64,000 nt of DNA from Streptomyces sp. NBC_01803 (lineage in GTDB: Bacteria > Actinomycetota > Actinomycetes > Streptomycetales > Streptomycetaceae): positions 4,324,501 through 4,388,500 of the forward strand of contig NZ_CP109073.1 in NCBI RefSeq assembly GCF_035917415.1. Reading direction: 5' to 3'. Below, in pieces: positions 48,477 through 52,215 of this stretch. Below the pieces are notes generated by a model. The model was not told the origin of the DNA. It saw only the letters and a list, made by a program, of their open reading frames with translations, and searched no databases. Both the position numbers and the translations under genes were made by a program. The stretch's first letter is position 1. Each line of letters starts with the position of its first letter.

Positions 48477-48710
48477 ATGGGTGCACACAGCAGAAAGTGC
48501 GACTGGTGCGGAGCGGGTACGCCCATCGTCCGCGACCTGCAACCCGTCAACGTGGCTTACCAGTACTGGTGTGTGGAGTGCGCGCGGGCGCTGATCATAA
48601 AGGGCGACCCGATCGAGGTGTACCGCGAGCTGGAGGGCGAGCCGATCTACGGCCGGCTGCTGGACGAGCACTGCGCGCTGAAGCGTTTCTACTCGTTCGC
48701 GAGCGTCTGA
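48477..48710 (+). CDS. Small zinc-ribbon-like protein, unknown function
   Basis: The 77-residue protein has two CxxC pairs (CDWC near residue 8 and CVEC near 35), typical of a small zinc ribbon, then an acidic helical C-terminus (ALIIKGDPIEVYRELEGEPIYGRLLDEHCALKRFYSF). ATG 48477 with GGAG 11 nt upstream is my choice. The frame is open back to 48318 with a poorly conserved-looking leader, so ATG 48363 is an alternative. It is a conserved small protein in this group; zinc binding is an inference from the Cys spacing. Confidence 0.7.
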   Translation: MGAHSRKCDWCGAGTPIVRDLQPVNVAYQYWCVECARALIIKGDPIEVYRELEGEPIYGRLLDEHCALKRFYSFASV

Positions 48711-48727
48711 CCCCGGCCGGAACCGAT

Positions 48728-48758
48728 TTGGCAAACGAGCCCAGGGGGCGTGTACAGT
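48728..48758 (+). promoter_or_regulatory. Promoter of tRNA-Ala
   Basis: TTGGCA (48728-48733) and TGTACAGT (48751-48758) form a promoter with 17-19-bp spacing. It starts a short leader of about 50 nt before the tRNA, containing two GGGAAAGCCC units. Confidence 0.6.
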
Positions 48759-48812
48759 AGGCATCGCCGCCGAGGGAAAGCCCGGAAGGGAAAGCCCAAA
48801 GCGTCGCGACAA

Positions 48813-48885
<73 letters not shown>

Positions 48886-48914
48886 CAAGATCGAGAGGCG
48901 AGGTGTGTTCGCGG

Positions 48915-49190
48915 AAAGCGCGAACGGCCTCGCTCTTGTCATTTCTGCTCGGCTTCGCCTCGCATGGCGGGGGCTTCGCCACCCGCGCCCCCCGGGGGGT
49001 GGGGGCGGGGCGTGTGCCGGGAAAGCGCGAGCGGCCTCGCTCTTGTCATTTCTGCTCGGCTTCGCCTCGCATGGCGGGGGCTTCGCCACCCGCGCCCCCC
49101 GGGGGGTGGGGGCGGGGCGTGTGCCGGGAAAGCGCGAGCGGCCTCGCTCTTGTTGTTTCCGCTCGGCTTCGCCTCGCATGGCGGGGCCCG
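48915..49190 (+). repeat. 107-bp tandem repeat downstream of tRNA-Ala
   Basis: Two full copies (48915-49021 and 49022-49128) differ at one position, and a third copy is partial (from 49129, diverging after about 60 bp). Each contains CGCGCCCCCCGGGGGGTG, a strong hairpin, and a CTCGGCTTCGCCTCGCATGG segment. The run fills most of the gap between the tRNA and the leuS leader. Open frames through it are non-coding in composition. Confidence 0.9.
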
Positions 49191-49224
49191 GTCTGTTCGG
49201 TGGGGGCGGTTTCGGGCAGTGCGC

Positions 49225-49230
49225 TACCCT
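49225..49230 (+). promoter_or_regulatory. -10 element of the leuS leader transcript
   Basis: TACCCT ends 6 nt before the ATG of the leader peptide, so the transcript would begin at that ATG. No good -35 is seen; extended GC-rich sequence lies upstream. Confidence 0.45.
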
Positions 49231-49236
49231 GTCGGC

Positions 49237-49275
49237 ATGCGTGCCGTACGCCTTCTGCTTACGCGGCCGCGCTGA
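49237..49275 (+). CDS. leuL: Leucine-rich leader peptide upstream of leuS
   Basis: ATG at 49237 encodes the 12-residue peptide MRAVRLLLTRPR, with three consecutive Leu codons (CTT CTG CTT at 49252-49260), ending TGA at 49273-49275. CTT is a rare codon in this genome, so two of the three Leu codons are unusual, which suits a starvation sensor. It is followed by a stable stem and an intrinsic terminator before leuS, the layout of ribosome-mediated attenuation. No ribosome-binding site precedes it, and it may be translated from a leaderless RNA. The symbol is by analogy only. Confidence 0.75.
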   Translation: MRAVRLLLTRPR

Positions 49276-49330
49276 CGAACGTCGGACACGACGCCAGCGC
49301 GGCCATCCCCTCCTGTGTGAGGGGTTTTTT
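49265..49330 (+). terminator. Attenuator structures between leader peptide and leuS
   Basis: Two structures follow one another. The first is a perfect 10-bp stem, GGCCGCGCTG (49265-49274) with CAGCGCGGCC (49295-49304), whose left arm overlaps the end of the leader gene. The second is an intrinsic terminator, CCCCTC (49307-49312), loop CTGTGT, GAGGGG (49319-49324), then six T (49325-49330). This is the only classical U-tract terminator seen in the window. I could not find a clear antiterminator that competes with it. Confidence 0.8.
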
Positions 49331-49368
49331 CATTGCGTGGCAGAGACGACCCATGGAGTTCGAAGACG

Positions 49369-52215
49369 ATGAGCGAGACACACAAGTACGACGCCGCCCT
49401 GGCCGCGGACATCGAGGCTCGCTGGCAGGACTACTGGGAGCGGCACGGCACGTACGAGACGCCCAACCCGATCGGGGATCTGGCGGACGATCCGGAGCAG
49501 GCCGCCCGGCCCAAGAAGTTCATCATGGACATGTTCCCGTACCCGTCGGGCGCCGGGCTGCACGTGGGGCATCCGCTGGGGTACATCGCGACCGACGTCT
49601 ACGCCCGCTTCCAGCGGATGACCGGGCACAACGTCCTGCACACCCTGGGGTTCGACGCCTTCGGGCTGCCCGCCGAGCAGTACGCGGTGCAGACCGGCAC
49701 GCATCCGCGGGTCTCCACCGAAGCGAACATCAGGACGTACAAGACCCAGTTGCGGCGGCTGGGCCTGGGCTACGACCAGCGGCGCTCGTTCGCCACCATC
49801 GACGCGGACTACTACCGCTGGACGCAGTGGATCTTCCTGCGCATCTTCAACTCCTGGTACGACCGGGACGCCGACCGGGCGCGGCCCATCGACGAGCTGA
49901 TCGCGCGGTTCGAGGCGGGCGAGCGGGCCACGCCCGACGGCCGGCCGTGGAGTGAGCTGACCGCCGTCGAGCGCGCCGACGTGCTGAGCGGGTACCGGCT
50001 GGCCTACGCCTCCGACGCGCCGGTCAACTGGTGTCCCGGCCTGGGCACCGTGCTGGCCAACGAGGAGGTGACGGCCGACGGCCGTTCCGAGCGCGGCAAC
50101 TTCCCGGTGTTCAAGGCCAAGCTGCGGCAGTGGAACATGCGGATCACCGCCTATGCCGACCGGCTGCTGGACGACCTGGAGACTGTGGACTGGCCCGAGG
50201 CCATCAAGCTGCAGCAGCGGAACTGGATCGGCCGCTCCGAGGGGGCCCGGATCGGCTTCCGGGTCGGGGAGGAGGGCGACGGTAGCACCGTCACCGTCTT
50301 CACCACCCGGCAGGACACGCTGTTCGGCGCCACTTACATGGTGCTGGCGCCCGAGCACCAGCTGATCGACGCCGTCGTCCCGGCCGCCTGGCCTGAGGGC
50401 ACGCACGCGGTGTGGACGGGCGGGCACGCCACCCCGGCCGACGCGGTCGCGGCGTACCGCAAGCAGGCCGCCACCAAGTCGGACGTGGAGCGGCAGGCGG
50501 ACGCGAAGGAGAAGACCGGCGTCTTCACCGGCGCGTTCGCCGTCAATCCGGTCAACGGCGAGCGCGTTCCGGTGTTCATCGCCGACTACGTGCTGCTGGG
50601 TTACGGCACCGGCGCCATCATGGCCGTTCCGGCGCACGACAGCAGGGACTTCGTGTTCGCGCGGGCCTTCGAGCTGCCGATGCGGTGCGTCGTGGAGCCG
50701 GACGACGGACGCGGCACGGACCCGGCGATGTGGGAGGACGCGTTCAACTCCAAGGACGCGCGCATCGTCAACTCGGCGGCCGAGGGGCTGAGTCTGGACG
50801 GGCTGACCGTCTCCGAGGCCAAGGCGCGCGTCAACTCCTGGCTGGAGGAGCGCGGTCTGGGCGAGGGCACCGTCAACTTCCGGCTGCGCGACTGGCTGTT
50901 CAGCCGCCAGCGGTACTGGGGCGAGCCGTTCCCCATCGTCTACGACGAGGACGGCGTCGCCCACGCGCTGCCCGAGGAGCTGCTGCCGCTGGAGCTGCCG
51001 GAGATCGACGACTACTCGCCGCGGACGTTCGATCCGGAGGACGCCGACACGCGGCCGGAGACGCCGCTGTCGCGCAACGAGGAGTGGGTCCACGTCACCC
51101 TGGACCTGGGCGACGGGCCCAAGCGGTACCGCCGGGAGACCAACACCATGCCCAACTGGGCGGGTTCGTGCTGGTACCAACTGCGCTACCTGGACCCGCA
51201 CAACGACGAGAAGCTGGTCGACCCCGAGATCGAGCGGTACTGGATGGGGCCGCGCGAGGGCATGTCCACCGGCGGCGTCGACCTGTACGTGGGCGGCGCG
51301 GAGCACGCCGTGCTGCACCTGCTGTACGCACGCTTCTGGCAGAAGGTCCTGTTCGACCTGGGCCACGTCTCGTCGGCCGAGCCCTACCACAAGCTGTTCA
51401 ACCAGGGCATGATCCAGGCGTACGTCTACCGGGACAGCCGCGGCTTCCCGGTGCCGGCGGCCGAGGTCGAGGAGCGGGACGGCGCGTTCCTGTACGAGGG
51501 GCAGCCGGTCACCCGCGAGCTGGGCAAGATCGGCAAGTCGCTGAAGAACGTGGTCGCGCCGGACGAGATCTTCGCCGCGTACGGGGCCGACACGCTGCGG
51601 CTGTACGAGATGGCGATGGGGCCGCTGGACGTGTCGCGGCCCTGGGAGACCCGGGCGGTCGTCGGCCAGTACCGGCTGCTGCAGCGGCTGTGGCGCAACG
51701 TGCTGGACGAGGCGACGGGCGAGGTCACGGTCGTCGGGGATGAGCCGGACGAGGTGACGCTGCGTGCCATGCACAAGGCGATCGACGGCGTCACCCAGGA
51801 TCTGGAGCAGCTGCGCTTCAACACGGCGATCGCCAAGATCACCGAGCTGAACAACCATGTCACCAAGATCGAGCGGGTGCCGCGGGCGGCGGCGGAGACG
51901 CTGGTGCTGCTGATCGCGCCGCTGGCGCCGCATATCGCGGAGGAGCTGTGGCGACGGTTGGGCCACGGGGAGAGCGTCACCGGCGAGGCGTTCCCGGTGG
52001 CCGATCCGGCCTATGTGGTGGACGAGTCGGTGACGTGCGTGGTGCAGGTCAGGGGCAAGGTCCGCGCTCGGCTGGAGGTCGCGCCGACCGTGTCCGAGGC
52101 GGAGTTGGAGGCGCTGGCGCTGGCCGACGTGGCTGTGGTCGAGGCGCTGGGCGGCGCCGCGATCCGCAAGGTCATCGTGCGGGCGCCGAAGTTGGTCAAC
52201 ATCGTGCCCGCGTGA
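49369..52215 (+). CDS. leuS: Leucyl-tRNA synthetase
   Basis: This class I synthetase charges tRNA-Leu. The 948 residues are full length for the bacterial form. The HIGH motif is HVGH at 65-68. The KMSKS loop reads KIGKS at 720-724, a conservative variant of the MGKS form usual in this genus. The editing domain is present ([15 protein letters not shown]), as is the leucine-specific insert and C-terminal [16 protein letters not shown] 49369 is preferred with GGAG at 49355-49358. It is preceded by the leader-peptide attenuator, which suggests control by leucine or charged tRNA-Leu. Confidence 0.97.

Follow-up and report, generated by a model that had tools for sequence, protein, structure and literature searches.

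The leuS gene of Streptomyces sp. NBC_01803, which encodes leucyl-tRNA synthetase, is preceded by a compact element that is probably a ribosome-mediated transcription attenuator, one that lets leuS respond to charged leucine tRNA. Here, this element was analyzed within a stretch of 64 kb (64,000 nucleotides, called here the window), all of its parts being on the + strand. The attenuator itself has already been described in Streptomyces, leaderless start included, and the window holds a copy of the described element. What is added here is its spread through the class, the identity of its sensor codon, and the fixed distance of that codon from the hairpin, P1, that follows; the element is otherwise known.

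Seliverstov et al. (2005) predicted classical attenuators, each with a leader peptide, an antiterminator and a terminator, for the leuS genes of S. avermitilis and S. coelicolor (PMC1262725). Their element and the one in the window both have a leader open reading frame (ORF) with Leu codons and a terminator, and are almost certainly the same. That prediction covered two species, against 49 of the 114 class genera sampled here, and the excerpted text of that paper makes no mention of a leaderless start. In S. lividans TK24, leuL2 (MRAVRLLLSEPR) lies before leuS, was called "transcribed leaderless" from 5'-end RNA-seq, and is followed by a hairpin and a stretch of uridines (PMC8079986). The window peptide differs from that of leuL2 at two positions; the sensor-codon and distribution analyses come from the present work. 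Thus, the arrangement that the first-pass annotation of this DNA had offered as distinct, a leader of this kind used for leuS with leaderless initiation, is not new (PMC1262725; PMC8079986).

Architecture of the element upstream of leuS

The element begins with a -10 box, TACCCT (49225-49230), that ends 6 nt upstream of the ATG of a leader gene (49237-49275). This gene has 12 codons and a stop (ATG CGT GCC GTA CGC CTT CTG CTT ACG CGG CCG CGC TGA; ATG at 49237, stop codon at 49273-49275), and would be translated from a leaderless mRNA to give the peptide MRAVRLLLTRPR. Its control codons are CTT CTG CTT (49252-49260). The last CTT (49258-49260) begins 8 nt before 49266, the conserved start of P1.

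In the window, P1 is a stem of 10 base pairs. Here, GGCCGCGCTG (segment 1, the 5' arm, 49265-49274), which overlaps the leader stop codon, pairs with CAGCGCGGCC (segment 2, the 3' arm, 49295-49304), which ends 2 nt ahead of the terminator. The base at 49265 is a one-base extension found in this window. Inside P1 lies a second stem, P2 (49280-49293), where CGTCG (49280-49284) pairs with CGACG (49289-49293). The intrinsic terminator (49307-49330) follows, with a 6-bp stem (49307-49312 with 49319-49324) around the loop CTGTGT, reading CCCCTC-CTGTGT-GAGGGG (49307-49324), and then six T residues (49325-49330). The presumed regulated gene, leuS (49369-52215, start ATG at 49369), is identified by its match to TIGR00396 leuS_bact (894.5 bits, cut-off 548.4). 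From its start to the end of the terminator, the leader RNA would be about 94 nt long; the conserved unit is about 106 nt. A classical attenuator has a short leader ORF with cognate codons, and an intrinsic terminator between leader and structural gene; both are found here.

Most of these parts had been picked out in the first-pass annotation, and the sequence bears them out: TACCCT ending 6 nt before the leader ATG, the 12-codon ORF with three consecutive Leu codons (two of them CTT), and the 10-bp stem overlapping the end of the leader. The distance to leuS that it gave for the whole, 93-132 bp, is correct for the leader gene and incorrect for the terminator, which lies 39-62 bp upstream. 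It had also called the terminator the window's only classical hairpin with six T residues. This is right for terminators of that kind, for the run at 49325-49330 is the sole run of at least six T on either strand of the 64 kb, and it stands directly 3' of a GC-rich 6-bp stem. A looser local scan of positions 48700-49700 gave 6 terminator-like sites versus 0.6 expected, with the leuS-leader terminator the strongest.

The surroundings hold two further features. A tandem repeat (48913-49186; 107-nt unit, 2.6 copies, 97% matches) lies between a tRNA gene (48813-48885) and the leuS promoter. Located 16-17 nt upstream of the leuS start, the hexamer ATGGAG (49353-49358 in the window) is retained by 80 of the 81 near loci defined below, and may simply be the ribosome binding site. 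It was also considered as a second Leu mini-ORF. This was rejected, as its frame is not kept: ATGGAG opens a three-codon frame that reads MEL-stop in 58 of 81 loci, not including the window, and the rest vary or are without it.

Conservation, covariation and the probable sensor codon

The near set consists of 80 fetched leuS loci (the best 80 of 576), found without asking for Leu codons, together with the window. Because leader and terminator are present in 81 of 81 of these loci, whose copies are much alike and do not give independent counts, the element is not there by chance. Three Leu codons are found in 80 of the leaders and two in one; in 71 of 81 they are CTT CTG CTT. A loss of the Leu codons in relatives that keep the terminator would speak against an attenuator, as the first-pass annotation had pointed out; no such loss occurs among the 81 near loci, all of which have a terminator. 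TACCCT, TAACCT or TACTCT precedes the leader ATG in 81 of 81, at a spacing of 6 nt (78) or 7 nt (3). The terminator pattern CCCCTC-loop-GAGGGG, with a varying loop, also fits 81 of 81, although this pattern was itself used for finding.

A covariance model, R1, was built on alignment A1, which holds 47 of the 81 near leaders. R1 matches 297 of 297 sampled family genomes (17 of 17 genera) and 109 of 296 sampled class genomes (49 of 114 genera), 28 of the 109 belonging to the genus of the window; an R1 match is absent from the remaining 187 of 296 class genomes, about two thirds. A wider model, R2, has matches in 154 of 296 class genomes and in 19 of 246 genomes of the phylum sample, leaders of other genes included, and is without a match in 142 of the 296. 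Judged from these sequence matches, the spread of the leuS element is much wider than earlier described, and its build is very strict.

Fetched R1 loci number 106. These comprise 26 matches in 25 chosen family genomes (of 297) and 80 class loci, the latter being 80 of the 82 class matches outside the genus of the window (one each in G335 and G430 was left out). The N-terminus of LeuS is encoded downstream in 102 of the 106; a LeuS match downstream was not found for L165, L209, L236 and L241, and the L209 contig ends 40 bases past the element. L165 (G141:C52) is a second attenuator-like match, lies in a genome with 7% contamination, and has no LeuS match in the stretch examined. As a separate observation, TGTCCGG is found no more than 30 nt downstream of the terminator stem in 19 of the 72 class loci that were parsed (from L166-L245), versus 0 of 106 near and family copies.

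P1 and the terminator were examined for covariation in two alignments. Both partners have changed in 12 of 22 pairs in one (70 sequences) and in 15 of 22 pairs in the other (46 sequences), numbers to be read with the knowledge that both alignments were fitted to the model and lean towards structure, and that pair changes in related sequences are not independent events. None of 500 shuffles reached the observed covariation score in either alignment. When the partner was slid by 1-3 columns, paired cells fell from 96.8% and 95.6% to 37.5%-51.9%. In the terminator helix, 100.0% and 99.3% of the cells are paired, with both-sided change in 2 and 4 of the 6 pairs. The 5' arm of P1 is found in the versions GCCGCGCTGA, GCCGCACCGG, GCCGCGTCGA and GCCGTGCTGA, each with its matching 3' arm.

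Spacing within the element was measured by a script that divides each leader into segments. Its input was 186 loci: the 81 near loci, 25 of the 26 family loci (L165 was left out), and the 80 class loci. The script accepted only copies with a Leu codon, of whatever kind, 8 nt before P1, allowed a gap of 0-5 nt between P1 and the terminator, and defined the leader start as the closest start codon that is in frame and has a TAnnnT box 4-9 nt upstream. It parsed 179 loci, missing L196, L200, L205, L216, L236, L238 and L241. With L213 dropped as a misparse, 178 copies remained (81 near, 25 family, 72 class).

In these, the Leu codon that starts 8 nt before P1 is CTT in 172, CTC in 5 and CTG in 1. 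Outside the 81 near copies, CTT holds this place in 76 of 80 distinct leaders. CTT is a rare codon in leuS genes, with 9 of 5880 Leu codons in 80 such genes and 0 of 79 in that of the window. By eye, CTT is likewise found 8 nt before P1 in five of the unparsed leaders (L196, L200, L205, L216, L238). The other two, L236 and L241, carry Ile codons and in this resemble the citramalate leaders discussed below. The two codons preceding the sensor codon specify Leu in 176 and 168 of the 178 copies, CTG and CTC being common. In the leader of L232 (VASQQQRLIGPR), the CTT at the sensor position is the single Leu codon. The distance from the end of P1 to the terminator is 0-3 nt in 175 of 178 parsed copies (0-5 allowed), and the stretch between the 9-nt arms of P1 runs from 3 to 104 nt.

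The leader start codon is ATG in 139 and GTG in 39 of the 178. A TAnnnT box stands 6 nt (150) or 7 nt (28) before it in every parsed copy, where the script allowed 4-9 nt; before other ATG or GTG codons of the same sequences, TAnnnT at such spacing occurs in 3 of 3209 cases. In S. lividans, the -10 motif is TAnnnT, at a mean distance of 6.3 nt from the transcription start site (PMC8079986). A -10 box so placed would put the transcription start at the start codon, as expected of a leaderless leader gene. The first-pass annotation had suspected such a gene, and both the fixed spacing in 178 of 178 copies and the report that leuL2 of S. lividans is leaderless (PMC8079986) support it. This suggests that leaderless ribosome loading and leuS attenuation have been kept together across many genera of the class.

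Leaders of the same design before other genes

Thirty R2 matches were chosen by hand and fetched, of which 10 lie before leuS and 20 before other genes. For 13 of the 20 (L252-L257, L261-L264, L269, L272, L275), the downstream gene is of the citramalate synthase type and the leader has Ile codons (for example, MFYGLLIIGRRAG); L253 alone was tested (TIGR00977, 449.8 bits, cut-off 450, incomplete protein), the others being assigned by eye from the translation. In 6 of the 20 (L248, L250, L251, L258-L260), the downstream gene reads by eye as acetolactate synthase, and the leaders have Leu, Val or Ile codons. In L249, it reads, again by eye, as isopropylmalate synthase. A further leader with Ile codons and a like hairpin-terminator stands before a citramalate synthase type gene in L276.

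Ten of the 13 citramalate leaders have ATC or ATT 8 nt before the stem; L263, L264 and L275 follow after a one-base shift of the stem start. The promoter boxes of the citramalate leaders are mostly CAGACT or CACACT, at varying distance. Because these are not TAnnnT, a leaderless start is less sure here. The genome of the window has its own citramalate synthase type gene (L287, C1:1742780-1744250), with the leader VLSFAMIIGDRRAGPQ, whose last Ile codon, as read by eye, is 11, not 8, nt from a GC-rich stem. It also has an acetolactate synthase type gene (L286, C1:1763466-1765264) with an ilvB-type leader, MRTRILVLGRRVG, a stem and a terminator; this is a known kind, the ilvB leader having been reported (PMC8079986).

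A third model, R3, built on 15 Ile-codon citramalate leaders, has matches in 137 of the 197 class genomes and in all 61 family genomes searched; as it also matches leaders of leuS and other genes, these are not counts of citramalate leaders. In open PMC text, no publication was found on a citramalate synthase leader or on the class-wide spread; the attenuator survey of Lopatovskaya et al. (2010) may hold part of this.

Other leaders with branched-chain codons bear comparison. That of C. glutamicum ilvBNC resembles the leuS element in its codons, in a transcript start one nucleotide from the leader start codon, and in hairpins near the terminator, and a three-hairpin model for it is backed by mutations (PMC11857589). 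It differs in that antiterminator and terminator overlap there by three bases, whereas no overlap was found here, and in its gene and control codons. The ilvB-II motif also combines a branched-chain codon leader with hairpins close to a terminator, with another gene and other control codons (PMC10272879). Further branched-chain leaders are treated in PMC10272879 and PMC13236596. The LEU element of leuA is built around a pseudoknot, in which a run of Leu codons pairs with the Shine-Dalgarno box (PMC1262725).

It may be, and we put this forward tentatively, that the leuS, citramalate synthase and acetolactate synthase genes of the class share one attenuator family. In such a family, the sensor codon would lie 8 nt before a hairpin that abuts the terminator, and the amino acid sensed would be set by that codon (CTT for leuS, ATC or ATT for citramalate synthase). 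The ribosome would then unzip the base of the hairpin instead of choosing between overlapping stems.

How the switch would work

That a Leu-codon leader peptide attenuates leuS, as first proposed from this sequence, is supported by the conserved CTT, by the covarying stem and terminator, and by the fixed -10 spacing. Sensing by the Leu codons, in particular, finds support in the Ile-codon leaders of similar build that stand before citramalate synthase type genes.

A trp-type attenuator has a leader peptide, control codons, a stem over the end of the leader, and an intrinsic terminator. The leuS element shares these four features, and differs in that its leader is taken as leaderless and in that its antiterminator is represented by candidate pairings only.

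From the parts, codon identity, spacing, stems and leaderless promoter geometry, all established by sequence and comparison, we infer stalling, read-through and a last switch step as follows. The RNA would begin with the A of the leader ATG or beside it, so that ribosomes would load straight onto its 5' end. When the charged tRNA-Leu that reads the rare CUU is abundant, the ribosome would reach the stop codon and leave, P1 would fold, and the terminator would keep most transcripts from extending into leuS. When this charged tRNA is in short supply, the ribosome would stall with the last CUU in its A-site where, given the ribosome footprint, its leading edge would cover approximately the first 5 nt of the 5' arm of P1. 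This would free the terminator-proximal end of the P1 3' arm, and termination would diminish. For the last step, the best candidate is that this freed arm (GCGCGG) transiently pairs with the terminator loop (CUGUGU/C) before the 3' arm of the terminator emerges.

Masked folding of the 178 copies gives this candidate a predicted place. With a ribosome stalled on the last Leu codon and the loop just made, folding predicts the transient pairing in 116 of 178, versus 0 of 178 without a ribosome; three bases later, the numbers are 109 and 3 of 178. When the whole terminator stem has emerged, folding predicts the finished terminator in 177 of 178. Under the same stall, P1 is predicted to persist in shortened form, with 4 pairs or more, in 141, 81 and 156 of 178 at these three transcript lengths. 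A ribosome held at the stop codon, however, frees the same arm, which then pairs with the loop in 84 and 109 of 178 while the 3' arm of the terminator is still incomplete, and therefore quick release there must be assumed.

The first-pass annotation could draw no competing antiterminator, and the gap that it saw is real. No competing pairing that overlaps the terminator stem was found, the mean pair probability of that stem being at least 0.93 in 49 of 50 foldings (10 copies, each with 5 ribosome positions). Nor does the P1 3' arm pair better with the actual terminator loop than with permuted loops (mean fraction 0.55, with 2 of 93 below 0.1, over 93 of 95 distinct combinations). Between the leader start and the P1 5' arm, pairing does not exceed that of shuffles (5.20 expected pairs versus 4.66 shuffled, median fraction 0.44, n=105), and neither does an extension of P1 into the terminator 5' arm (0.76 versus 0.85, median fraction 0.56, n=108). 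Because shuffle controls support none of these three candidate pairings, the last switch step is reported as one that we infer. Two other ideas were rejected. P1 and the terminator are not alternatives, since folding shows that both coexist and P1 abuts without overlap. In L001, leader codons 4-5 were considered for compensatory variation with the bases ahead of the terminator; by eye, this fails in the window and in several other loci.

It is unlikely that P1 is itself the antiterminator, such that a stall on the first or second Leu codon keeps P1 intact and P1, abutting the terminator hairpin, hinders it. The gap of 0-3 nt in 175 of 178 copies (0-5 allowed) would suit this mechanism. So would the fold model, where P1 keeps 4 or more pairs under stalls on the two upstream Leu codons (165-178 and 178 of 178 copies, by transcript length), as would the antiterminator of C. 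glutamicum ilvBNC, which abuts its terminator, the bases of the two overlapping by three nucleotides (PMC11857589). Against the mechanism, P1 and the terminator stem have no nucleotide in common here, and the extension of P1 is not above shuffles (0.56, 108 cases). Moreover, CTT is most strictly kept at the last Leu codon, and a ribosome stalled there should open the base of P1.

Very improbable is the view that leader and terminator set a fixed, unregulated level of leuS, or merely serve leaderless ribosome loading, with the Leu codons sensing nothing. Changes in candidate control codons of the S. coelicolor ilvB leader were without effect (cited in PMC1262725), which counts against codon sensing and is what this view would expect. 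It does not explain why a rare CTT is held at one position in 172 of 178 copies, or why Ile codons occupy a like place before citramalate synthase type genes. Control of leuS by a T-box, which governs many aminoacyl-tRNA synthetase genes in Firmicutes (PMC1262725), or by another known metabolite-sensing RNA family can be dismissed with near certainty, as the transcribed leader is only about 94 nt to the terminator end and an Rfam search of the whole window at curated (gathering) thresholds gives one tRNA and nothing else.

Read as a ribosome-mediated attenuator, the element offers a single rare codon set at a constant spacing from a hairpin, within a strictly conserved unit, that can be changed and read in ordinary laboratory streptomycetes. 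Its paired versions, Leu for leuS and Ile for citramalate synthase, provide internal controls for the sensor codon. Should there be no overlapping antiterminator, this attenuator would be simpler than the textbook one.
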